DNA from: Propionibacteriaceae bacterium
Lineage (GTDB): Bacteria > Actinomycetota > Actinomycetes > Propionibacteriales > Propionibacteriaceae
Length of the DNA: 57,426 bases
NCBI GenBank assembly: GCA_031262485.1
Contig: JAISHO010000007.1
Coordinates: 1-57,426 of the forward strand
Direction: 5' to 3'
This document shows positions 1 to 57,426 of the stretch, in pieces (position 1 is the first letter of the stretch; every line of letters starts with the position of its first letter). The notes beneath the pieces were generated by a model. It was not told the origin of the DNA and ran no database searches. It saw nothing but the letters and a program-made list of their open reading frames with translations. The position numbers and the translations under genes were made by a program.

Positions 1-146
1 ACCTGAAAAACTGGAAAATACTCCACACCGACTACCGCCGACCACACCGAACGTATCCCCAAACAATTACCGCAGTCATATCACTCCACTTTTACAAACT
101 CTCATTATGAATAAGCCTCTATCAATGGAATCAACGAGAAACGTAT

Positions 147-175
147 TTGACTCTTATGCTGGAAAGAATTGGATA
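147..175 (+). promoter_or_regulatory. Candidate promoter of the I36-M23 peptidase gene
   Basis: A TTGACT -35-like hexamer (147-152) is followed after 17 bp by TGGATA (170-175), about 85 bp upstream of the peptidase start. The surrounding 1-259 stretch is AT-rich and holds no convincing gene. The -10 match is only partial, so this is a weak call. Confidence 0.3.
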
Positions 176-259
176 GCGGGAAGGTAGATATTCTGGGAAA
201 ATATAGAAATGAACGCAGATAAACTATTAAGATGATGAAAATTTTCAAAGGAGATAATA

Positions 260-1177
260 ATGGTTTCATCAAGGAAATTGGCGATGTTGGCAGGGTCGGT
301 CTTGCTTGCCGTCGGATTCTCTTTTTCGGGTATGCCCTCAGCTCAAGCAGCGTCACGGAATGGTGTATGTGATAATGGAGAATTTTGCTATTCTTACAAC
401 AGCGGGTTCAAAGGATCAGTGTCTGATTTTACGGGATCACTGGCCAATTATGGTACAACTCAGCCCTCTTGTTATGATTTTAAAGGAGCGGGAGCCGGAA
501 AAGGCCGCTGTATAAAAAACGATGCTGCATCGGTATGGAATAGAACTGGCCAGACCGTTCGCGTGTATTATAATTCAAATTATGGCGGTTCCTATCAAGA
601 CTTTGCTCCCGGAGTTCAGGGAAATTTGAATTCAACGTTGAAGAATAATAATGCCTCCCATAAATTGATCGGTTCAAGTTCGTCTGGATCGGGATCGTCG
701 AGTTCTGGTTCTACGAATAACTGCCTTTCGTCGGTTCTCTATGGAACAAATAGCTCACGACTAACCTGTGGATTCGATGGTTACACAACAACTTCAGGCA
801 GGCATGAGGGGATTGACATGGCTCGATCTGTCGGAGCGCCAATCTATTCTTTGACAAATGGAGAAGTAATCAGTGTCAGGGAAGGAAAAACAGGCAGTGG
901 TGGATTGTCGACAATTGCAATATATGCCGCAAGAGAGAATAAGACAGTTATTTATCTTCATGCAGATCCAAATATTTCTGTCGGTCAAACGGTAACTAAG
1001 GGAACGCGTATAGGTTATGAATCTTGGCGTGGTGTAAGTGGGTCATCTGGAGCTCATACCCATGTTGAGGTACGTAATGGACGTCAGACCTATGCGGCTA
1101 AGAGCGTTGGTGACTATACGCTCCAGAATTCTAATCCAACATCGTGGTGGACTGGATTAGGATATAGAATTTGTTGA
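260..1177 (+). CDS. Secreted M23 peptidase with N-terminal I36-like domain
   Basis: Predicted secreted zinc endopeptidase of the lysostaphin/M23 type, acting on peptidoglycan cross-links or other Gly-rich peptides outside the cell. A signal peptide (about residues 1-31, ending AQA-A) is followed by a Cys-rich domain (about 36-135) resembling the peptidase-inhibitor I36 / Streptomyces metalloproteinase-inhibitor family. A Ser/Gly linker (about 138-152) leads to the M23 domain. Zinc ligands are visible: H182 and D186 in HEGID, and H268 in the HTH triad, with catalytic-type H234 and H266. An AAGGAGA ribosome site sits just before the ATG. The gene is clearly richer in A+T than the rest of the window, which suggests transfer. 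The I36 part could be an inhibitor or a binding domain; the family assignment of that half is less certain than the M23 half. Confidence 0.88.
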   Translation: MVSSRKLAMLAGSVLLAVGFSFSGMPSAQAASRNGVCDNGEFCYSYNSGFKGSVSDFTGSLANYGTTQPSCYDFKGAGAGKGRCIKNDAASVWNRTGQTVRVYYNSNYGGSYQDFAPGVQGNLNSTLKNNNASHKLIGSSSSGSGSSSSGSTNNCLSSVLYGTNSSRLTCGFDGYTTTSGRHEGIDMARSVGAPIYSLTNGEVISVREGKTGSGGLSTIAIYAARENKTVIYLHADPNISVGQTVTKGTRIGYESWRGVSGSSGAHTHVEVRNGRQTYAAKSVGDYTLQNSNPTSWWTGLGYRIC

Positions 1178-1262
1178 CAATTGTGGAAAAGGTTGTGGGC
1201 AGGGCTTGATTGTGATACGCGCGAAAACAAGGAAGCGCTAAATTCAGCCCAAATAGACCCAA

Positions 1263-1274
1263 AGTTGTACAACT
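1263..1274. promoter_or_regulatory. 12-bp palindrome AGTTGTACAACT
   Basis: A perfect 12-bp palindrome lies in the AT-rich gap after the M23 peptidase and about 60 bp before the hairpin-rich region. It is a plausible dimeric regulator site; nothing else supports a specific regulator. Confidence 0.3.
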
Positions 1275-1323
1275 AAACTCCGATATCTAGCATGTTGTTG
1301 AGATTGCGAGTATTAATTACTTA

Positions 1324-1650
1324 ATGCTGTCTCTCCTCCAGTATCGGATGTGGCGACCCCGAAAACCCTTCGGGTTCGGTGGTGGTGAGGTCGGTCATGT
1401 GACCGTCTGGCCCACGCGAGTGGGCGCCTATGGATTACGGAACTCTGACCTCGTCGGAGCGGTTTCCCCTAGCCGTGACGACGAGGTCAGAGCCGTGTCT
1501 CCACCAGTGGTGTGTCCGCGGTTGTCTGATGTCGAGAAGTGGAGTGAGCTGGCGGCTAGTATCAATGTGCTTGCTCTTGGCACAGGGGTCCACGTCGACC
1601 GCATCGGGAGTTCTGAGAGCGAGCATGTGTCCTCCTTCTCGCCCCTCGGA
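1324..1650 (+). ncRNA. Candidate structured RNA or long structured leader
   Basis: This gap upstream of the MerR-type gene has no good reading frame but is packed with stable stems. Seen: CGACC 1354-1358 closing with GGTCG 1389-1393 around an inner AACCC/GGGTT stem (1364-1376); GGTCA/TGACC (1393-1404); a six-pair stem GCCCAC/GTGGGC (1410-1425) capped by a GCGA GNRA tetraloop; and a perfect 13-bp inverted repeat (1443-1455 with 1480-1492). The density of stems and the GNRA loop suggest a folded RNA on the + strand, either an independent ncRNA or a cis-acting 5' leader of the regulator gene that starts at 1665. I could not match it to RNase P, tmRNA, 6S or a known riboswitch by eye. Confidence 0.42.
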
Positions 1651-1664
1651 AGGGAGCTCCTGCC

Positions 1665-2546
1665 ATGAACACGTACTCGACCAGTGAGATGGCGAGACTC
1701 GTCGGAGTCACGCCACGGACGATCCAGTATTGGGCGAACTACGGCCACGAGGACGAAGACGAGGACATCCGCAAGGAGAAGGAGATCCAACGGGATCCTG
1801 AGAAGCAGCGGTACAGCAAGAAGAGGGCCGTCAAGGGGGTTCGCAAGCAACTTCTCCCGAAAGTGACGCGCCGAGAATCGTTCGATGGGCGAACTAAAGG
1901 GAAACGGATTTTTACCGATGACGATCTGGTCCGGTGCCGGCTGATCAAGAACCTCCAAGATAGCGGGCTCGGGCTTGAGAAAATCGCTGTGATTCTCAGT
2001 GATCCGAGCCATGTTGATCTTGAAGTGATCGTAAAAGATTCTCTTAGGGACATTCACGAGCAGCTATCCGAGTTGGAAGAGAAAGCGAGAAATCTTAGAA
2101 CGATCGAGGAGGAGAATTCTTTTTTAGGGAATTTCGTCGATCGAATGGCTCATTTGCGCGAGATTGGAACTCCCCAGGAAGCCATTGATGCCGCTTTGAG
2201 GTTGCTCGTGATTTCTGCGCAAAACGTCTCTCCCCATTATCGGAGGATCGTCGAGCAGCTGGACGAGCTGTCTGATCGTCCTGTGGCGAAGGAAAACGAG
2301 CGACTCTGCCTAGAACTTTCCGAAGATGCGTCCGATGCTGAGATCGAAGAGCTGGGTCGAAGAATTGGCCGTGATAATATCGCCCTCTATCAATCTCACC
2401 GGGAGTTGTATAGCCAATATTTAGACAGTCCTCCGGGAAATTTGATTAGGCAACTGTTTAGGAATACGCTGAATGAACCACAGCGGCGTGTGGGTGATCT
2501 GGCTCGAGGGATCCTTGACGATTACCGGCGAAATCAGTCCCAATGA
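1665..2546 (+). CDS. MerR-like transcriptional regulator with charged insertion
   Basis: Predicted DNA-binding regulator. The N-terminus (residues about 3-26: YSTSEMARLVGVTPRTIQYW) is a MerR-type helix-turn-helix, and RIFTDDDLVRCRLIKNLQ (about 80-97) followed by SGLGLEKI resembles the second half of the MerR winged helix. Between them lies a roughly 50-residue insertion very rich in Asp, Glu, Lys and Arg that normal MerR proteins lack. The C-terminal 180 residues look helical and coiled-coil-like, without recognisable ligand residues. An SD-like GGAAGGGAG stands 8 nt before the ATG. It lies directly behind the hairpin-rich region and ahead of the peptidase/holin genes, so it is a natural candidate to control them, but no direct link is visible. 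The ligand is unknown. Confidence 0.72.
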   Translation: MNTYSTSEMARLVGVTPRTIQYWANYGHEDEDEDIRKEKEIQRDPEKQRYSKKRAVKGVRKQLLPKVTRRESFDGRTKGKRIFTDDDLVRCRLIKNLQDSGLGLEKIAVILSDPSHVDLEVIVKDSLRDIHEQLSELEEKARNLRTIEEENSFLGNFVDRMAHLREIGTPQEAIDAALRLLVISAQNVSPHYRRIVEQLDELSDRPVAKENERLCLELSEDASDAEIEELGRRIGRDNIALYQSHRELYSQYLDSPPGNLIRQLFRNTLNEPQRRVGDLARGILDDYRRNQSQ

Positions 2547-2675
2547 AGGGGTCCGTGTACTGTAAAACGACGATAGTGCTCGTCAGAGTCTGACTGATAG
2601 TCTGTAGTTTTGTGGGAAGTTGGTGAGTCGACGTGGAGGCGACACTACATCTAAATCAGGTTTCAGGTCTTGTCC

Positions 2676-2690
2676 ATGACGTTACGTCAT
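2676..2690. promoter_or_regulatory. Palindromic operator, copy 1
   Basis: A 15-bp odd palindrome ATGACGTTACGTCAT lies 16 bp before the C1 peptidase start. The 16 bases from 2677 to 2692 (TGACGTTACGTCATAG) recur exactly at 5865-5880, before the LPXTG metalloprotease. Exact recurrence upstream of two functionally related genes argues for a shared regulator binding site. Confidence 0.6.
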
Positions 2691-2706
2691 AGAAGACCAT
2701 TCAGTT

Positions 2707-4185
2707 ATGTCTCTCCTCCTTCGGGGCGTCGCATCTCAACGGACCGGCGCCCAAAATGTGCGTACCCTGTCACGTTCTGTCGATAGACATGCCATGTCCT
2801 TGGCGAAGGATGCCGCCGCCTTGGTGGTTGGGGTGGTGGTTCTTCTCACCTCTGCCGGAGGACTATTCACCCTCCTGAGCGATCGGAATCCGACCGGTGC
2901 CGCACCTGAAAGCGTCGTAAAGCAAGCTGATCTTCCCAAGAAATTTGATCTTCGTGACGAAGGGTGGGTGACCCCGCCACGTTATCAAGAGATGTTCAAT
3001 ACTTGTACGGTGTTCGCTGCGGCTGCCTCCATGGAATCGGCACTGTTGCGTAAGGGGCTCCGATCCTCCCCTGACCTCTCGGAATGGCATCTCTACAACG
3101 CGGTTTACAACGAAGAGTCGATGGCGGAGCAGACGGACCCCATGATGGAGGGCACGACATTTATGGATGTCGCTCAGGCTCTATCAAAATGGTATGGAGC
3201 TGCAGACGAGGTCCCGTTCCCTTACGGGGAAGCGCCCGCTGAGCTGTGGATAGAAGCTATCAAGATTAGTTCTTATCGACTCGAGGGAGCCGTCTTTTTT
3301 CAAAGTCCCCATGACGATGAGAGTCGTGAGGATCTGAAAAGGGAGATCATAGCCCGCGGGGCGCTCGCGACCACGATAAGCGGTGATAGTTGCCGGGTCG
3401 GTGGTGACACCTGTAACACCTTGGGCCTTGGGGAGAGTAGGCATGCTATTGCGATCATTGGTTGGGATGATAACTACGATCGCAGCAAATTCACCCCGGC
3501 ATCTCAGAACGACGGTGCTTGGATCATCAAGAATTCCGATTGGAATCCTGATGGCAGTGGCGGATTTCGATATCTTTCCTATGAAGATGTCAGTATAGAA
3601 GAAGCGTGGGCGTTCGATGTCGACCTTGCGGGTGACGGCTTCGGGAAGGCATATTTTTATGACACCACAGAGATAATGCCATATAGCAGCGCTTACGGAT
3701 CAGTGGAGAACGGAGAGAAAGCGAGGATAACGCTGGCGAATCAATTTGAGGCAGATGATGACACGGTAACTATTCTTGATTCGGTGTCGTTCGTAACTGG
3801 TGATCCTCACTTGAGCTATGAAGTTGATATCTACCTCACTGAAGACAGCGACGACGGTGAGCTTATGTTAACTGAAAGAGTGCCGGTGGGGTCGAATGGT
3901 GCGATGTCGATCTCGGGGGAGTTATCCCATCCTGGCCTTCACGTTATCGATCTTCATGGTAATCCCTCTATCCCTCCAGATCATCGGTTCGCCGTTGTGA
4001 TCACCTTGACATCTCAGGACGATGGGCGAGCGATCGATATTTACCGAGAACACAAGAAATCCTCTGAGGATAACTTTAAGATTAATTCCGGAGAGTCGTT
4101 CATTTACGATGACGACTGGGAAGATATTGCTAATTATAATAGTGACTACTGGGGAAATCTCCCCATTAAGGTGTACACATCATGA
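2707..4185 (+). CDS. Membrane-linked C1 (papain-family) peptidase with C-terminal lectin-like domain
   Basis: Predicted cysteine endopeptidase held at or exported through the membrane. A hydrophobic segment (about residues 33-58) acts as signal-anchor. The papain fold follows: FDLRDEGWVTP (about 78-88), oxyanion Gln94 exactly six residues before catalytic Cys100 in NTCTVFA, His246 in SRHAIAIIGWDD, and Asn276 in WIIKNSDWNPDGSGG. All four catalytic positions are present, so activity is expected. The last 170 residues are beta-rich and match the lectin-like domain usually found at the C-terminus of this C1A subgroup. The start is uncertain: no clear SD precedes 2707, and an in-frame ATG at 2794 would give a shorter N-terminus just before the hydrophobic segment. 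Its stop overlaps the next start (ATGA), so the two products are translationally coupled. Codon use is less G/C-biased than in the core genes. Confidence 0.82.
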   Translation: MSLLLRGVASQRTGAQNVRTLSRSVDRHAMSLAKDAAALVVGVVVLLTSAGGLFTLLSDRNPTGAAPESVVKQADLPKKFDLRDEGWVTPPRYQEMFNTCTVFAAAASMESALLRKGLRSSPDLSEWHLYNAVYNEESMAEQTDPMMEGTTFMDVAQALSKWYGAADEVPFPYGEAPAELWIEAIKISSYRLEGAVFFQSPHDDESREDLKREIIARGALATTISGDSCRVGGDTCNTLGLGESRHAIAIIGWDDNYDRSKFTPASQNDGAWIIKNSDWNPDGSGGFRYLSYEDVSIEEAWAFDVDLAGDGFGKAYFYDTTEIMPYSSAYGSVENGEKARITLANQFEADDDTVTILDSVSFVTGDPHLSYEVDIYLTEDSDDGELMLTERVPVGSNGAMSISGELSHPGLHVIDLHGNPSIPPDHRFAVVITLTSQDDGRAIDIYREHKKSSEDNFKINSGESFIYDDDWEDIANYNSDYWGNLPIKVYTS

Positions 4186-5297
4186 GTACTGATAAAATCA
4201 TTTCTGCTGCGGCTGATATTATGCTCGGAAAAAATAAAGATGGCTCCCTAGATTCTTATGTCATTGGGCAAGACGGCGTTTTCTATAGCAGATCCCAGGT
4301 CAAGGGTGGAAAATGGGGAACATGGGCCCCTGGATCGGACGCCGGATTATTTGCTCCTGGCTCGTCAGTGACATCCGTCCTCGATGGGAACGGCAAACTC
4401 ATTAATTTTGCCGTAGCCACTAATGGACATGTTTATAGTCGGGAGCAGCAAAATCCTGGCGGAGACTGGACGTCGTGGAGCGACCAAGGATCCTCTCAAA
4501 TATTTGAGCCTGGATCCGTAGTCAACCCTTTTGCTGATTCCACTCACCGTATTGACCTGTACGTCATCGATGCGAAGGGGACCCTCCACACTCGTTCTCG
4601 AACGGTCGGATCCACGTGGAGCGACTGGTCGGCCGATAGCGACGAGGGGAAATTTGTTCCTGGTTGTCGCGTGTCGTCCATGGAGACGCCGACGCGAGTT
4701 CTCAATGCTGCTATCGGAGTCGATGGCTGTCTCTACGTGCGTCAGAGGCTTGACGACGGTCTCGGGTGGGGTGTCTGGGAAGCGCGAAGCGACTCCCGGT
4801 TCCCAGCAGGAGCCGCGATCTCAATGATCGCGGATGCACCGGGAACCCTCTGGATCCAGATCGTTGGTAAAGATGGAGTGATGTGGTTTTCCTCTATGGA
4901 TGCTCAGGGAGAATGGAGTGAATGGCTAGCGACCAGTGATGAAAAACAGTTCATTCCGGGCTCTCCGGTGACCTTGACTTCTCAAGGGAATCGAATCTAT
5001 GGGACGGCCGTGAATGCTAAGGGTCGAGTCGTAGCAGCAGATGGCACGAATCCGGAAACATGGACCGCTTCGTCATGGAAGGAAGTCGGAAATATTGTCA
5101 CGGCGCCTGGGACGATGGTCTCAGCGGCTTCAGACTTATCTGGAAAATTGTTCATGACGGTCGTCGACGCGGCAGAAAAGATCAGAAGTCTCCTTGGGTT
5201 TGATGATTCGCAATGGAGCAAGGATGACCCGTCAGCGCCAACGATGCCACGTCCCTCTCAAGAGAAGCGCCCTGGCGTCACAACATGGGCTTGGTAA
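4182..5297 (+). CDS. Seven-repeat beta-propeller (PLL-like lectin fold), no signal peptide
   Basis: The 371 residues consist of seven consecutive repeats of about 48-52 residues, each with a DG/KG turn, an SR or R-rich strand, a W-x-x-W motif (for example WGTWAPGSD, WTSWSDQGS, WSDWSADSD) and a closing F-x-PGS. Seven such units are what a closed seven-bladed propeller needs, as in PLL/PHL-type fucose lectins and tectonin-like proteins. The sequence starts almost directly with the first blade, with no signal peptide, lipobox or membrane segment. Start and previous stop overlap in ATGA, so synthesis is tied to the C1 peptidase. Likely role by family is carbohydrate binding; sugar specificity cannot be read from sequence. 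If it works outside the cell it needs a non-Sec exit, and the next gene is a holin. Confidence 0.72.
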   Translation: MSTDKIISAAADIMLGKNKDGSLDSYVIGQDGVFYSRSQVKGGKWGTWAPGSDAGLFAPGSSVTSVLDGNGKLINFAVATNGHVYSREQQNPGGDWTSWSDQGSSQIFEPGSVVNPFADSTHRIDLYVIDAKGTLHTRSRTVGSTWSDWSADSDEGKFVPGCRVSSMETPTRVLNAAIGVDGCLYVRQRLDDGLGWGVWEARSDSRFPAGAAISMIADAPGTLWIQIVGKDGVMWFSSMDAQGEWSEWLATSDEKQFIPGSPVTLTSQGNRIYGTAVNAKGRVVAADGTNPETWTASSWKEVGNIVTAPGTMVSAASDLSGKLFMTVVDAAEKIRSLLGFDDSQWSKDDPSAPTMPRPSQEKRPGVTTWAW

Positions 5298-5431
5298 TTG
5301 GTGCGATATAGATTCCGGTCTTTGGACTTCGATGATGAGAGATAGCGCCGAGTCTTTGCCGATGTCAGCTATGAATTATTCTTGTTCATTTGGCTAGTGG
5401 GCAGATTTTTCTTTTCATAACGGGAGATACT

Positions 5432-5782
5432 ATGCAGAATAATTGGTTCACCAAACAATTCTGGGCAGCGACTGTGGAGCGTGCTATCAAAACCTTCGCT
5501 CAGTCGATGGCCGCGTTACTCACGACGAGTGCGGTCGGCCTCTTCGAGATCGACTGGCTGAACTTTCTCTCCATCTCGGCGGTTGCGACGATCGCATCCG
5601 TGCTGACATCGGTGGTGTCCGGCAGTATGACGGGAGGGGAGACATCAGTCACTCGCGCTGAACTCATCGCCACCCCAGCAGTCGTCACAGCGCTCAAAGA
5701 GACTGACGAGAACAAGACGGATGAGAAGGTACCTGAGACCGCGGAACCTGAGTCTGAAGTGGAGACAACGGTTACTGTCTGA
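5432..5782 (+). CDS. r1t-type phage holin
   Basis: Small membrane protein (116 residues) matching the phage r1t holin family: an amphipathic N-terminus with WAATVERAIKTFAQSMAALL, a first hydrophobic segment ending in AVGLFEIDWL, then LNFLSISAVATIASVLTSVVSG as the second segment, and a charged C-terminal tail rich in Glu and Thr. Such proteins oligomerise into lesions in the cytoplasmic membrane. ATG 5432 is chosen because GGGAG stands 5 nt upstream; an ATG at 5390 would add 14 unlikely residues and has no SD. No other phage genes (capsid, integrase, terminase) are nearby, so it is a stand-alone or domesticated holin behind the propeller gene. It ends just before a strong terminator, making it the probable last gene of the peptidase-propeller unit. 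Confidence 0.83.
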   Translation: MQNNWFTKQFWAATVERAIKTFAQSMAALLTTSAVGLFEIDWLNFLSISAVATIASVLTSVVSGSMTGGETSVTRAELIATPAVVTALKETDENKTDEKVPETAEPESEVETTVTV

Positions 5783-5787
5783 GAGAT

Positions 5788-5835
5788 GATCTGGGGGTGG
5801 TGTCCTGCGAATGGCCGCCACCCACCAGATCTTTT
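5788..5835 (+). terminator. Intrinsic terminator after the holin gene
   Basis: GATCTGGGGGTGG (5788-5800) pairs with CCACCCACCAGATC (5818-5831) with a one-base bulge and is followed by a short T run. It starts 6 bp after the holin stop and separates this unit from the metalloprotease gene. Confidence 0.75.
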
Positions 5836-5864
5836 CGCCATTATTTCGTGTCGTTGGTTGCGCG

Positions 5865-5877
5865 TGACGTTACGTCA
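5865..5877. promoter_or_regulatory. Palindromic operator, copy 2
   Basis: TGACGTTACGTCA, a perfect odd palindrome, lies 51 bp before the metalloprotease start. With the following TAG it is identical over 16 bp to the site before the C1 peptidase (2677-2692). Confidence 0.6.
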
Positions 5878-5928
5878 TAGCCGGGAATAGGGATATCCAC
5901 CCGTCTCTCTCACGAGAAAGTCCCCCGG

Positions 5929-8900
5929 ATGATGACCTCTCCCTCTCGTCGTATTCGTTTCGCCTTCTCGCTGGTCGCGTTCGCCACCACCACGGCACTG
6001 TTTCTCGCTGGATCGATCGCCGGTGCGCCATCGGCGAACGCGGATGAGCCGCCCCCAGGTTCCAGCAGCGTCGACGCCGCCCTTCCCCCCGTTGGGATGA
6101 CTGGAGCCGAAACTGGAGCCGGCTCCCTCACCGGCCAGCTCGACCTCACCGGTCTCGATCCCCTCGCCGCTCAGCGGTTGAGCAGCATGGAGAACGACAT
6201 CGACCTGCGCTACATGCAGCCGGTCAATCAGCTGCGCACCATGGCCGCCTCCACCGATACCGGCATCGTCGAGCCGGGAACGTATGTGCCGCATCAATTC
6301 GACGTAGCTGTCGTCACCTACGTCGATGACGCCAGCCAGATCCCAGCCGAGGGCACCTGGCCCGAATGGATCGACGAATCGACCATCACCGACTGGCTCT
6401 CCGCAGCCGAACAGTGGTGGTCGCATAACAGCGGCCTCGATTTCGATTTCATCACGGGGTTACGGTTCAAACCGGTCTACGTCGTGCAGAAGGAGACGGA
6501 CGCTGTCGGTATCGACGCATGTGTCGAATCAACGGGAACCGCTCTCGACGGAGCCATGGAAATCCTAGGGATGGAACGGCCCGAAGGAATGGTTCATTAC
6601 CAGACTAATCCCGCCGATTTGTTGATGATTCATGAACCTGGGAACTTGTGTGGCGGATTGGTTTCTGGGATGGCACTCTCGGTCGCTCAAAGGCCGAACG
6701 TGTTCTCCGGCGGCGTTTTCAACCTCTATCCCGATGAGGGAACGTATGGGACACCGGCGACTGATCCGATATGGGCCGGCATCCTCGCCCATGAGTTCGG
6801 CCATACGCTCGGTCTGGGTCATAGCAACATGATGAACTGCTACGGGGCGACTCCGCTGGGCGATGACACGATCGGACTCGATTACAGCGTCACTCAAGGG
6901 TCTGAGATCTGCACGGAGAATGGTTATGGAGACACTTGGACGATCATGGGCCTGTCGTCGGCCCAACCAGCGGATGCCTACTCGCTGAGCGCCGACCAGC
7001 GCTGGCGGCTCGGACTCGTGGCTGATGGGGTCGGGATCGACGTGCTCGATGAGCCGACGGATGAGACGGTGACGATTCATCGCGGCGAGGCTGCGGAAAC
7101 TTCGAATACTCGCGCCGTCATCATTCCTGAGACGACGACAGATGCGACGATCCCTTCGTCGTCATATCATGTGGCGGTCGAGTACCGTTCGGCTGGCCCG
7201 GCCTTTTTCGGGGGCGAGGCTCCCGCCGGCGTGTATGCGACCCTCGTCAAGAACGTCGACGCTTCCGAGACCATGCTTCTCGATGATGAGATCTCTCCTT
7301 TCAGGCCGAAGGAATCGGTGCTGATCCAACCGTTAGGCGCTTCGGAACGCCTACGCGAGAACGGCGTCATTCCCCTTGTGAACGGCGATCATTTCACCAC
7401 CCCGGACGGGCGGGTCTCTCTTGAGATCGTCGACGTGTCGGAGGAGTCGGCCGCGATCAAGGTACGTGTGTTGGGGGATCGCGGCGTCCCCGGGCAAGTG
7501 TGGATCGAACGCGATGAGACGCGGCCGGATCTTCTCCACGCGCGGATCGCCACCGGCAACGAAGGGGCGACGGCGACGTATCAGTGGTATCGCGACGGCG
7601 GCATCATCGAAGGAGCGACAGCCGCGTCGATCGACGCCTCACACGCTGAGGGTTCGATATATCGGGTCGAAGCTGTCCTCAGCCAACCGGGACGGACGGA
7701 CACGATTCGTAGCAGCATGGGAATCCTCGTTGGTGGCGAACAACTGACGATGACGACACCACCCGTCCCCGCCGACGGGGTGTCGACGCACACGATCTCC
7801 TATTCAATGCTGGAGAATGACGGGCCGGCCGTTGGAAATCTCCCAGAGGAGATCCCCGTCATCGTCACACTCACCACCGCGACGGAACCTGTGGCGACTC
7901 AGCAAGCCATTACGATTCTCACACGCGTCTCCGACCATCGCTACGAGGGTTCTTTCCCCTCGACGGTGCCGGGGAGGCACACGGCGTCTGTCCGCATCGC
8001 CCAGAACCTTTCAGCGGTTTCGGCATATTCGAGCGCGTATCTCGGGGCGGATCCGGTGATTCTTGGAGAAGCCGTCATCGACTTCCTTCCCGTCGCCGGT
8101 TCGAACGTCTCCATCGCCTACCCCACATTCATGCGGGGGATCGCGACAACCGATAACTCAACCACGAGCAACGACCTTCAGTCGCAGACCGCGACGATCG
8201 TCGTCTCCGCTAGAGACAGCGCTGGCAACCCTGTCGCTGGGGCGCCTGTCGAGATTGCCGCCTCAGCGCCGCTGGAATTCAATGGTTTCCCGGCGGTGAC
8301 GCCCCTAGAACAGAACCAGGAATCATCCGCTGGTGTTTCCAGTAGCGACGATGGCGTCACCGCGACTTCGGTGACGGACAGCGACGGACGGGCGCTGATC
8401 GTCGTCTCCTGGGGCGGGCCTCGATTCGAACAGGGAACATGCCAAGAAATTCCCCTGATGGCGACCGTCGCAGGGGAAACGGTGGAAGCGCCTCCTGTCA
8501 ACGTTTGTGATCCGCAAAACGTTGTCGAGCCCACACTCAATGCCACCGGGTGGGCCAGCCCGTCCACTGGCGTCCCGGCAGACGGTCACAGTGCCTACGA
8601 GATCCGCTTCCGCGTCTTTGACGACGAGGGGAACCTGATCACCGATCGGGCTGATTCCTATGCAGTCGTCTGCGAGACTGGTTATGCCACCTGCGATGCC
8701 CCGAAGTGGGACCCGACGACCGAATGGTATGTCTCCTACGCTCGTTCCACGACCGGAATGCCGTTGATGCTCGACAACCTGGGGCTATATCTGTTCAATG
8801 ATTACGTGACGGTCGTCGATCGAACGACGGGCGGATATGCCCGCATCGGATCGGTTTCCTTCACTGCGGGAGCGGATTACGGCTATCCCGCACCTGAGAT

Positions 8901-10002
8901 CTTCGTCAGTGACGAGGGCCCCTTCGCCAGCGAGTCCGGCGGCTGCTCGGTCGACACCGATTCGACAGCGGTTATCACCGTTGCCTTTCCTCGGGACAAC
9001 GATGTCACAGGGCCTGGCCACATGCTTGACGTGCCGCTCTATGCCACCGCTGATCCGGAGCTGACCATCGAAGAGGGTCCCTTCATGGGGCTCAACCATT
9101 ACGACGAAGCCGCGACCATCCAGGTCTCTTCCTCCAGTGCCGGTACGTTCAACGTCTACCTTCACGTCGTCGATCAACTAGGCAGGATGGCTGCTCAATC
9201 CGACCCGATCGTCATCCCCGTCACCTTCTATGACGCTCCTCTGAGTGTCGAGAAATCTTTGGTTGCGGTGAGTGACGGCGCGCGTCTCTCTGATGGCGCT
9301 GACGCTCATACGGTGACGGTGTCGTTGATAAGCCAATGCGGGGCCCCGATCACGGGGGCAGCGGAGAAAATCAGCCTTTTCCTCACGGTTGGCCCACCAC
9401 CAAGCCAGTCAGAGAGCGACACCCGTTCCGAGAGCGCCGTCCCGCCGCGGGATGAGAACGATATCGACGCTCCATCATCCGGTGAGGCGGCCGAGGAATC
9501 GACAACGGATCCGTCTCGACTCGAGAGCAAGAACGGCGGATCGCGGGACGTTCCCATGGGGATCTCCATCTCTCAGATCACCGAGCAGTCCCCGGGTGTT
9601 TACACGGCCACGGTCACGTCGACGGGAGCCGGTTCTCCCTACACCGTGAGGGCGTTCTACGAGAACCAACTGATAGGAGCCCCCCAGGAGATCGTGTTCG
9701 CCGCCGATCCCGCCTACGAGCCGCCGGTCGAACCGGCCCCGGAGCCGGAGCCCGTCTACGTCGATCCCGACGTCGACGGGAACGGTGATGGGACGAATGA
9801 CGATTGGTCCGAGGACGACCCGTCGCAGGACCCCTCCGGCGATCCTGGGAAGATCGGGTCGAAGGAATCCACCGGCGCATCCGGCCGTCTCCCGTCGACC
9901 GGCCCCGGCGAGGCGTTGACCTTGGCCGCGCTGCTGGCCTTGTTCTTCGCGACGATCGGGCTGATCACCATCCACATCGCGCATCGCAAGAACGTTTCCT
10001 GA
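5929..10002 (+). CDS. LPXTG-anchored secreted zinc metalloprotease
   Basis: A 1357-residue cell-wall protein. Signal peptide about 1-38 (cleavage after ANA). The catalytic region (about 120-380) has the metzincin zinc site HEFGHTLGLGH with H288, H292 and H298, and a Met-turn-like TIMG at M340. Cysteines around 303-328 may form a disulfide. Downstream are several beta-sandwich segments of the Ig/invasin type (for example VSARDSAGNPVAGAPVEI near 765, and a second near 1110), then a Ser/Glu-rich and a Pro/Glu-rich wall-spanning stretch. The C-terminus is a sortase signal: LPSTG at 1321-1325, a hydrophobic helix and HRK. It should be covalently attached to peptidoglycan and cleave extracellular proteins; the substrate is unknown. 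The shared palindrome upstream suggests co-regulation with the C1 peptidase. It could belong to an M6- or M43-like group; subfamily is unresolved. Confidence 0.87.
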   Translation: MMTSPSRRIRFAFSLVAFATTTALFLAGSIAGAPSANADEPPPGSSSVDAALPPVGMTGAETGAGSLTGQLDLTGLDPLAAQRLSSMENDIDLRYMQPVNQLRTMAASTDTGIVEPGTYVPHQFDVAVVTYVDDASQIPAEGTWPEWIDESTITDWLSAAEQWWSHNSGLDFDFITGLRFKPVYVVQKETDAVGIDACVESTGTALDGAMEILGMERPEGMVHYQTNPADLLMIHEPGNLCGGLVSGMALSVAQRPNVFSGGVFNLYPDEGTYGTPATDPIWAGILAHEFGHTLGLGHSNMMNCYGATPLGDDTIGLDYSVTQGSEICTENGYGDTWTIMGLSSAQPADAYSLSADQRWRLGLVADGVGIDVLDEPTDETVTIHRGEAAETSNTRAVIIPETTTDATIPSSSYHVAVEYRSAGPAFFGGEAPAGVYATLVKNVDASETMLLDDEISPFRPKESVLIQPLGASERLRENGVIPLVNGDHFTTPDGRVSLEIVDVSEESAAIKVRVLGDRGVPGQVWIERDETRPDLLHARIATGNEGATATYQWYRDGGIIEGATAASIDASHAEGSIYRVEAVLSQPGRTDTIRSSMGILVGGEQLTMTTPPVPADGVSTHTISYSMLENDGPAVGNLPEEIPVIVTLTTATEPVATQQAITILTRVSDHRYEGSFPSTVPGRHTASVRIAQNLSAVSAYSSAYLGADPVILGEAVIDFLPVAGSNVSIAYPTFMRGIATTDNSTTSNDLQSQTATIVVSARDSAGNPVAGAPVEIAASAPLEFNGFPAVTPLEQNQESSAGVSSSDDGVTATSVTDSDGRALIVVSWGGPRFEQGTCQEIPLMATVAGETVEAPPVNVCDPQNVVEPTLNATGWASPSTGVPADGHSAYEIRFRVFDDEGNLITDRADSYAVVCETGYATCDAPKWDPTTEWYVSYARSTTGMPLMLDNLGLYLFNDYVTVVDRTTGGYARIGSVSFTAGADYGYPAPEIFVSDEGPFASESGGCSVDTDSTAVITVAFPRDNDVTGPGHMLDVPLYATADPELTIEEGPFMGLNHYDEAATIQVSSSSAGTFNVYLHVVDQLGRMAAQSDPIVIPVTFYDAPLSVEKSLVAVSDGARLSDGADAHTVTVSLISQCGAPITGAAEKISLFLTVGPPPSQSESDTRSESAVPPRDENDIDAPSSGEAAEESTTDPSRLESKNGGSRDVPMGISISQITEQSPGVYTATVTSTGAGSPYTVRAFYENQLIGAPQEIVFAADPAYEPPVEPAPEPEPVYVDPDVDGNGDGTNDDWSEDDPSQDPSGDPGKIGSKESTGASGRLPSTGPGEALTLAALLALFFATIGLITIHIAHRKNVS

Positions 10003-56881: not shown

Positions 56882-57426
56882 TCACTGCTCGATCATGGCG
56901 CCGATCGTCTGTTCGTTGTTCTGACGGTCGAACGGGCAAGCGACGAACGACTGATCTTCGTTGCCCTTCAACTGTTCGGCGTAGTAGTAGCCGGGCAGGG
57001 CGTCGCTCAGCATCGCCGCGACGGCGTTGGCCGCGTCACCCTTGTACTTGTTCGGCTTCTGCATCACCTGGAGGATCGTCGGATCGTCATCGAAGGTGAC
57101 GCCCTTGAACCACTCCGCGGATACGACCTCGTTGAAGCGGGCGTCCGGGCTGATCCCGGTGCGCGCCCAGACCTCAGAGGTCTTGTGGAGGTCGTACTGC
57201 TTCCAGAACCCAGGCGAGCACCAAGCCGGGCTGTCGCCCGAATCGATCGGCGGGCCGATGATCGGATCGTCCGGGTTGACCGGGTCGACGGGCTCAGGTT
57301 CGGGCTGAGGCTCGGGTTCGGGCTGTGGCTCGGGTTCGGGCTGTGGCTCGGGTTCGGGCTGTGGCTCGGGTTCGGGCTGTGGCTCGGGTTCGGGCTGTGG
57401 CTCGGGTTCGGGCTGTGGCTCGGGTT
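56882..57426 (-). CDS. WCSPGFWK-motif protein (paralog 2), 5' end outside window
   Basis: The C-terminal 181 codons of a protein continuing beyond the right edge. A run of PEPQPE repeats, a VDPVNPDDPIIGPP spacer and then the module PAWCSPGFWKQYDLH, VWARTGISPDARFNEV, NAVAAMLSDALPGYYYAEQ, and CPFDRQNNEQTIG are visible. The module is clearly homologous to the C-terminal half of the protein at 53175-54023. The Pro/Glu repeat probably forms an extended stalk between an unseen N-terminal part and the module. It is likely secreted like its paralog, but the signal peptide is outside the window. Function unknown. Confidence 0.82.
   Translation of the reverse strand, partial: PEPQPEPEPQPEPEPQPEPEPQPEPEPQPEPEPQPEPEPQPEPEPVDPVNPDDPIIGPPIDSGDSPAWCSPGFWKQYDLHKTSEVWARTGISPDARFNEVVSAEWFKGVTFDDDPTILQVMQKPNKYKGDAANAVAAMLSDALPGYYYAEQLKGNEDQSFVACPFDRQNNEQTIGAMIEQ
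57293..57426 (-). repeat. 18-bp tandem repeat encoding PEPQPE
   Basis: Seven full 18-bp units and part of an eighth (starting 57293, 57311, 57329 and so on) run off the window edge. The first unit differs by two bases; the others are identical, so the array can change length by slippage without losing frame. Confidence 0.9.

Follow-up and report, generated by a model that had tools for sequence, protein, structure and literature searches.

Why should the gene for a phage-type holin stand behind a peptidase gene and the gene of a propeller protein that carries no export signal? The question is raised by the left end of a 57,426-nucleotide stretch of DNA (the window) from Propionibacteriaceae bacterium (GenBank assembly GCA_031262485.1, contig JAISHO010000007.1; here genome G000, contig C9), which starts at the first base of the contig. 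The original prediction read the three genes as a release system, in which the propeller leaves the cell through holin lesions and an exported peptidase acts at the cell surface. On our analysis the likeliest picture is that a regulated pair of peptidase and lectin, sitting in acquired DNA, has been joined by a captured holin. That the holin also serves as the exit of the propeller, within an operon switched by a MerR-type regulator, is the best explanation available, and we hold it with somewhat less than even confidence.

The first gene (2707-4185, + strand) encodes a papain-type C1 peptidase in which both domains pass their Pfam cut-offs: Peptidase_C1 (PF00112) with 38.6 bits against 20.7, and a C-terminal Lectin_like domain (PF18560) with 65.7 bits against 27. 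The papain active-site residues Gln, Cys, His and Asn align with those of two relatives (L119 and L061). Their neighbours are unusual, in that Thr replaces the Trp after the Cys and KNSD replaces KNSW. The single hydrophobic stretch of the protein, near residues 39-57, would be either a signal peptide or a membrane anchor. The TGA of this gene is overlapped by the ATG of the next (ATGA), which encodes a propeller of 39.7 kDa (4182-5297, + strand) with seven W-rich repeats as counted by eye. It lacks a signal peptide, and its hydropathy never exceeds 1.23 in windows of 19 residues. The propeller matches the BP39L profile NF052349 with an E value of 6e-31 and the general propeller-lectin profile NF052348 with 8e-30; in both cases it stays far under the curated cut-offs (107.6 of 400 bits and 104.1 of 200 bits). 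BP39L lectin (6gxr, E 6.6e-5) is also its sole sequence match in PDB. By sequence the propeller is thus related to the PLL/BP39L lectins without being counted as a member of the family, and it is probably a sugar-binding lectin. It shares with them the repeats, the want of a signal peptide and the best profile match, and differs in falling under the cut-offs, in being a putative sugar binder and in sitting behind a peptidase gene.

The third gene (5432-5782, + strand) matches Phage_r1t_holin (PF16945) with 76.8 bits against a cut-off of 26.9, and a PHROG holin family as well. The frame has an alternative TTG start at 5390; we consider the ATG at 5432, which is preceded by GGGAG, the likelier start. 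Holins of the r1t type have two transmembrane segments. In this protein one hydrophobic segment is clear (residues 40-66), while the second, at about residues 22-38, stays under 1.6 in 19-residue windows. The frame is intact and keeps the core common to 14 aligned relatives, and its C-terminal tail is long and acidic; long tails are also found in three relatives (L056, L057 and L058). Profiles, hydropathy and folding therefore agree with the gene content that had been predicted, from the overlapping peptidase and signal-less propeller to the holin and a terminator.

That terminator (5788-5835, + strand) has its main stem at 5788-5831, followed by UUUU. The region 5770-5850 folds at -35.5 kcal/mol with a z score of -3.6, and none of 200 shuffled sequences folded as well; a consensus scanner that demands five T does not list it. 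At the junction of propeller and holin (5280-5440) the fold is no better than that of shuffled sequences, and no terminator-like fold is found. A promoter belonging to the holin alone was considered and set aside, since the single promoter-like match overlaps the start codon and the scan returned 5 matches where shuffled sequences gave 5.6. With an operator in front, a terminator behind and no terminator-like fold or credible promoter between propeller and holin, a single transcription unit of all three genes is possible, as the original prediction held.

The operator was found by a repeat search, which returned TTGTCCATGACGTTACGTCATAG at 2670 and TTGCGCGTGACGTTACGTCATAG at 5858. The first copy (2670-2692, + strand), upstream of the C1 gene, reads TTGTCC-A-TGACGTTACGTCA-TAG and looks like a promoter; the second (5858-5880, + strand) reads TTGCGC-G-TGACGTTACGTCA-TAG. 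In the whole genome of 2.84 Mb there are three exact copies of the palindrome TGACGTTACGTCA, where 0.04-0.08 are expected by chance and a reversed control pattern gives none. It lies before the C1 gene, before the gene at 5929 and before a unit with an M23 peptidase gene at position 37791 of contig C39, so that each of the three units it heads encodes a putative exported peptidase, although for 5929 this is judged solely from a motif. Across 18 other genomes of the genus the palindrome is present twice, once in G089 and once in G099; at that rate at least three copies in one genome would have a probability of about 3e-4, by a rough Poisson estimate with rounded sizes. In these three genomes all five exact sites, of which two are corresponding places, have the palindrome four bases after TTG. 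In G089 and G099 this spacing is unchanged, TAG again follows, and the site lies between two adjoining MerR genes or frames, the second of them short (L187:6308-7597 and L188:2382-4017).

Promoters controlled by MerR-type regulators carry a palindrome between -35 and -10 and have a long spacer of 19-20 bases. Because the operator lies between MerR genes in two other species of the genus, the C1-propeller-holin unit is probably MerR-regulated. The -10 hexamers at the operator sites are weak. If TTG is taken as -35 and followed by a 19-base spacer, the C1 transcript would start at about 2707, its ATG, and would perhaps be leaderless. A MerR-family regulator gene (1665-2546, + strand; MerR_1, 46.9 bits) stands upstream in the window; in its product, alignment shows helix-turn-helix and wing to be set apart by an insert of about 35 residues. 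Three further sites in the genome match the palindrome with one mismatch, and TTG is in place at one of them (C22:28938), about 0.8 kb before a MerR gene whose product is 23% identical to that of the window; the other two (C22:19172 and C34:15045) are without it. A shortened copy of the window's MerR protein, 62-64% identical over about 155 residues and with the insert kept, is encoded at G000:C8:70770-71330 (L140:12771-13331), where no C1, propeller or holin gene was recognised alongside by eye.

Whether the first two genes belong together can be judged from relatives of the propeller. With single-sequence searches only the window itself was recovered among 147 family genomes and 19 genus genomes, a pattern scan of named genomes gave no match, and matches in three plasmid records were all under 60% identity; the unit as a whole showed no close relative. 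The lectin profile is more sensitive and, own genome included, matched in 35 of 394 class genomes and in 59 of 391 order genomes, 11 of the latter from the same family. Flanks were examined for 36 of the 91 other matching genomes and for two plasmid matches, which is part of what exists. They yielded 40 propeller frames: 20 from 18 of the 34 class genomes, 18 from 18 of the 58 order genomes and two from plasmids. A peptidase domain above the Pfam cut-off is fused to the propeller in 12 of these 40, namely matrixin (L106, L109), astacin (L111, L218), papain-type C1 (L119, L224, L225), trypsin (L122), M23 (L124), M43 (L232, L233) and, on a Nocardia plasmid, C70 (L044). The C1-propeller fusions come from three other class genomes, two of them (L224 and L225) of the window's own family and without a hydrophobic start; L119 is cut by a contig edge. 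The frame at L225:6614-8710 departs from propeller repeats midway, and this gene may be broken or misassembled.

Because C1-propeller fusions exist elsewhere, the C1 peptidase and the propeller are probably partners, and their genes resemble a recurrent peptidase-propeller fusion that has been split in two. The window pair has both part types in common with the fusions; it differs from them in having two overlapping genes, a Lectin_like domain, a hydrophobic peptidase N-terminus and a holin gene behind.

The missing export signal of the propeller was evaluated with a crude rule (mean hydropathy of at least 1.7 over 14 residues within the first 60), under which 9 of 38 relatives look exported (7 of 20 and 2 of 18), with starts uncertain and some frames cut. 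Homologous propellers that normally stand alone and carry signal peptides would have counted against the original prediction; by this rule most of them do not look exported. In the portions of one report that concern the Photorhabdus PLLs, the tails of these lectins are likewise not recognised as signal peptides, and PLL2 and PLL3 are detected in the extracellular fraction (PMC12203525). Since a signal-less state is common among propellers, it is by itself no sign of holin export.

The explanation that we tentatively favour starts from what is observed, that is, the genes, their overlap, the common operator, the terminator and the fusions elsewhere. From these we infer that MerR exerts control, that peptidase and propeller are partners in this organism, and that the holin is transcribed with them and serves for release. 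A short operon, lying in acquired DNA, would be switched on by a MerR-type regulator. The C1 peptidase, which it encodes first, would be exported through the membrane or held at it, and the propeller, encoded second and probably a lectin, would be the targeting partner of the peptidase. The phage holin, captured with the pair or after it, would open the membrane in all or some of the cells, and the 40-kDa propeller could then exit and join the peptidase outside. Good support exists for a regulated pair of peptidase and propeller. The role of the holin as exit is plausible from gene order in one genome and from the logic of TcdE and type 10 systems, and has no comparative support.

Holin-mediated export has been described in clostridia and in some Gram-negative bacteria. 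The unit resembles TcdE-type release in Clostridioides difficile in that a holin-type protein is encoded beside genes for signal-less proteins, as far as the excerpted accounts go (PMC12150058; PMC9527704). It differs in its putative cargo, which is a small propeller, in the exported or anchored peptidase at the head of the operon, in the r1t family of the holin and in the MerR-type operator. What it has in common with type 10 secretion, in the available part of the description (PMC10847048), is a chromosomal unit that combines a phage-type holin and a product lacking a signal peptide. Type 10 systems are holin/endolysin/spanin clusters outside phages, whereas the window unit has neither endolysin nor spanin; the nearest gene for a peptidoglycan-type peptidase, of family M23, belongs to another unit and ends 4.3 kb upstream. 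A review gives, in the part seen here, about 50 kDa as the limit for diffusion through the cell wall (PMC9527704); the propeller lies below this size, and so an endolysin would not strictly be needed. A more specific proposal, that an r1t holin has been domesticated in an endolysin-free, MerR-controlled unit to export the signal-less lectin subunit of a two-gene peptidase-lectin complex, whose halves would come together only outside the cell, we regard as rather doubtful. Among titles and opening lines of abstracts in the open-licence literature, a level at which absence from print is not established, no propeller cargo and no r1t holin turned to export was described, and no such system was found for holins with lectins and proteases, for actinobacterial holins or for MerR with holins.

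Several observations weigh against a role of the holin in export. Co-occurrence of the trio, which the original prediction put forward as a check, was not borne out: the trio was seen at no second place in the examined flanks and is known from one genome only. Specifically, 40 propeller stretches contain no holin- or C1-like gene with window proteins as phmmer queries, 15 stretches around C1-Lectin_like relatives contain no propeller- or holin-like gene by tblastn, and 30 holin stretches (16 class, 12 family and 2 viral contigs) contain no C1- or propeller-like gene by phmmer. These are part of all matches, some flanks are short at contig ends, and the screens reach moderate distances only; phmmer with the window C1 peptidase overlooked the C1 domains of L119, L224 and L225 that Pfam found. 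No r1t holin accompanies the signal-less fusions L224 and L225 in the flanks examined, and such a pair therefore seems able to work without one. Propeller and holin are separated by a gap of 134 bases, and no endolysin gene lies in the unit of the holin. The MerR proteins of G089 and G099 are nearer to the C22 protein (33-41% identity over parts) than to that of the window, to which their similarity is only distant.

The signal-less fusions without an r1t holin in their flanks also favour the possibility that the holin is a bystander, a stray prophage gene that an ordinary MerR-controlled pair beside it does not need, with the propeller leaving by chance lysis or an unknown route. Outside the window, relatives of the holin occupy 12 places in the family, spread over 11 other genomes of the 147, and 17 places in the class, spread over 14 other genomes of the 394. 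Endolysin, tail or integrase neighbours were recognised by eye in every family stretch except L053 (11 of 12) and in about 11 of 16 class stretches. Third-position GC is 0.542 for the C1 gene and 0.524 for the propeller; the holin (0.667 over 117 codons) is nearer the downstream gene (0.719), a hint of separate origin. The transposase-like tail at the contig edge and the extracellular Photorhabdus PLLs fit this possibility too. Against it, the holin frame is intact with a conserved core, the gene shares the strand of the propeller and lies between it and the terminator, and nothing else in the vicinity was recognised as a phage gene. We give it appreciable weight, short of an even chance. What stands of the release reading is a possible single unit and a probable peptidase-propeller partnership; the holin part is left with no second trio in the examined flanks and with relatives that, by eye, are mostly prophage genes.

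Absence of other phage genes was part of the original prediction, and among the called open reading frames of the window no integrase or structural phage gene was indeed recognised by eye. A prophage origin of the whole unit was rejected, and kept for the holin alone, as no propeller relative turned up in phage records or in the viral-contig scan, and viral-contig scans with short exact peptide patterns, which reach close relatives only, gave no C1 or MerR relative. The window is not alone in having an r1t-type holin apart from recognisable prophage genes: matches without recognisable phage neighbours by eye occur in L171, L176, L184 and L185, as possible non-prophage holins.

Bases 1-6000 have a GC content of 0.48-0.53, compared with 0.60-0.71 elsewhere in the GC profile of the window, and are therefore probably acquired DNA. 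A frame open at the contig edge (3-110, + strand) comprises 35 final codons that resemble the tail of an insertion-sequence transposase; it has no named match, and its two translated matches, in Streptomyces plasmids, are nameless. It is followed, 5' of the MerR regulator gene, by an M23 peptidase gene (260-1177, + strand; Pfam; GC 0.449) with an N-terminal I36-type domain and a signal-like N-terminus by eye. Among 11 window proteins scanned against PHROGs this one also matches phage endolysin families, as does the operator-headed M23 peptidase of C39. The latter lies at a low-GC contig end (G000:C39:37791-39348; L046:9792-11349) with a 156-residue protein whose start is signal-like and which matches neither Pfam nor PHROG families. 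The GC content of that end (0.43-0.46), set beside that of the window start (0.48), is suggestive of a link; no common end of at least 11 bases was found in the orientation tested.

These M23 peptidases could point to lysis, in which the holin collapses the membrane potential, unleashes the exported M23 enzymes and, in a subpopulation, frees all cytoplasmic content. Lytic type 10 systems free signal-less cargo, according to the same partial description (PMC10847048). However, both M23 genes are outside the transcription unit of the holin, that of the window has no operator in front, and the unit holds neither spanin nor classical endolysin; we consider lysis quite unlikely.

A suicide or defence unit, with a stress-responsive regulator, peptidase and propeller and a holin that kills or opens the cell as in protease-and-pore systems, is in our view slightly less likely still. 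Protease, putative pore and regulator do occur together, and one class genome has a propeller frame fused to Effector-associated domain 1 (L113:8306-9619), which hints at an intracellular role of some propellers. Yet the N-terminal hydrophobic segment of the peptidase should place its action outside, and the other operator-headed units encode exported proteins. A PADLOC scan of eight proteins returned a single weak match (mad1, E 3e-4), located in the DNA-binding part of MerR, and with support this slight a defence system was dropped.

Behind the second operator a gene at 5929-10002 (+ strand), in the putative regulon of the C1 unit, encodes a surface protein with Ig-like repeats and, by eye, a metalloprotease-like HEFGHTLGLGH motif and an LPSTG sorting signal; peptidase profiles match only below cut-off. 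A paralogue with 40% identity lies at G000:C35:46921-50577, on a contig where no operator with up to one mismatch was found. At the right contig end (window 56882-57424) there is a frame with PEPQPEPEPQ repeats.

Independently of the holin question, the operator predicts which genes switch on together, and the C1-propeller fusions account for the pairing of peptidase and propeller genes. If release through the holin is true, a lectin-like cargo whose partner is exported would extend the variety of holin cargoes, in a small and testable system.

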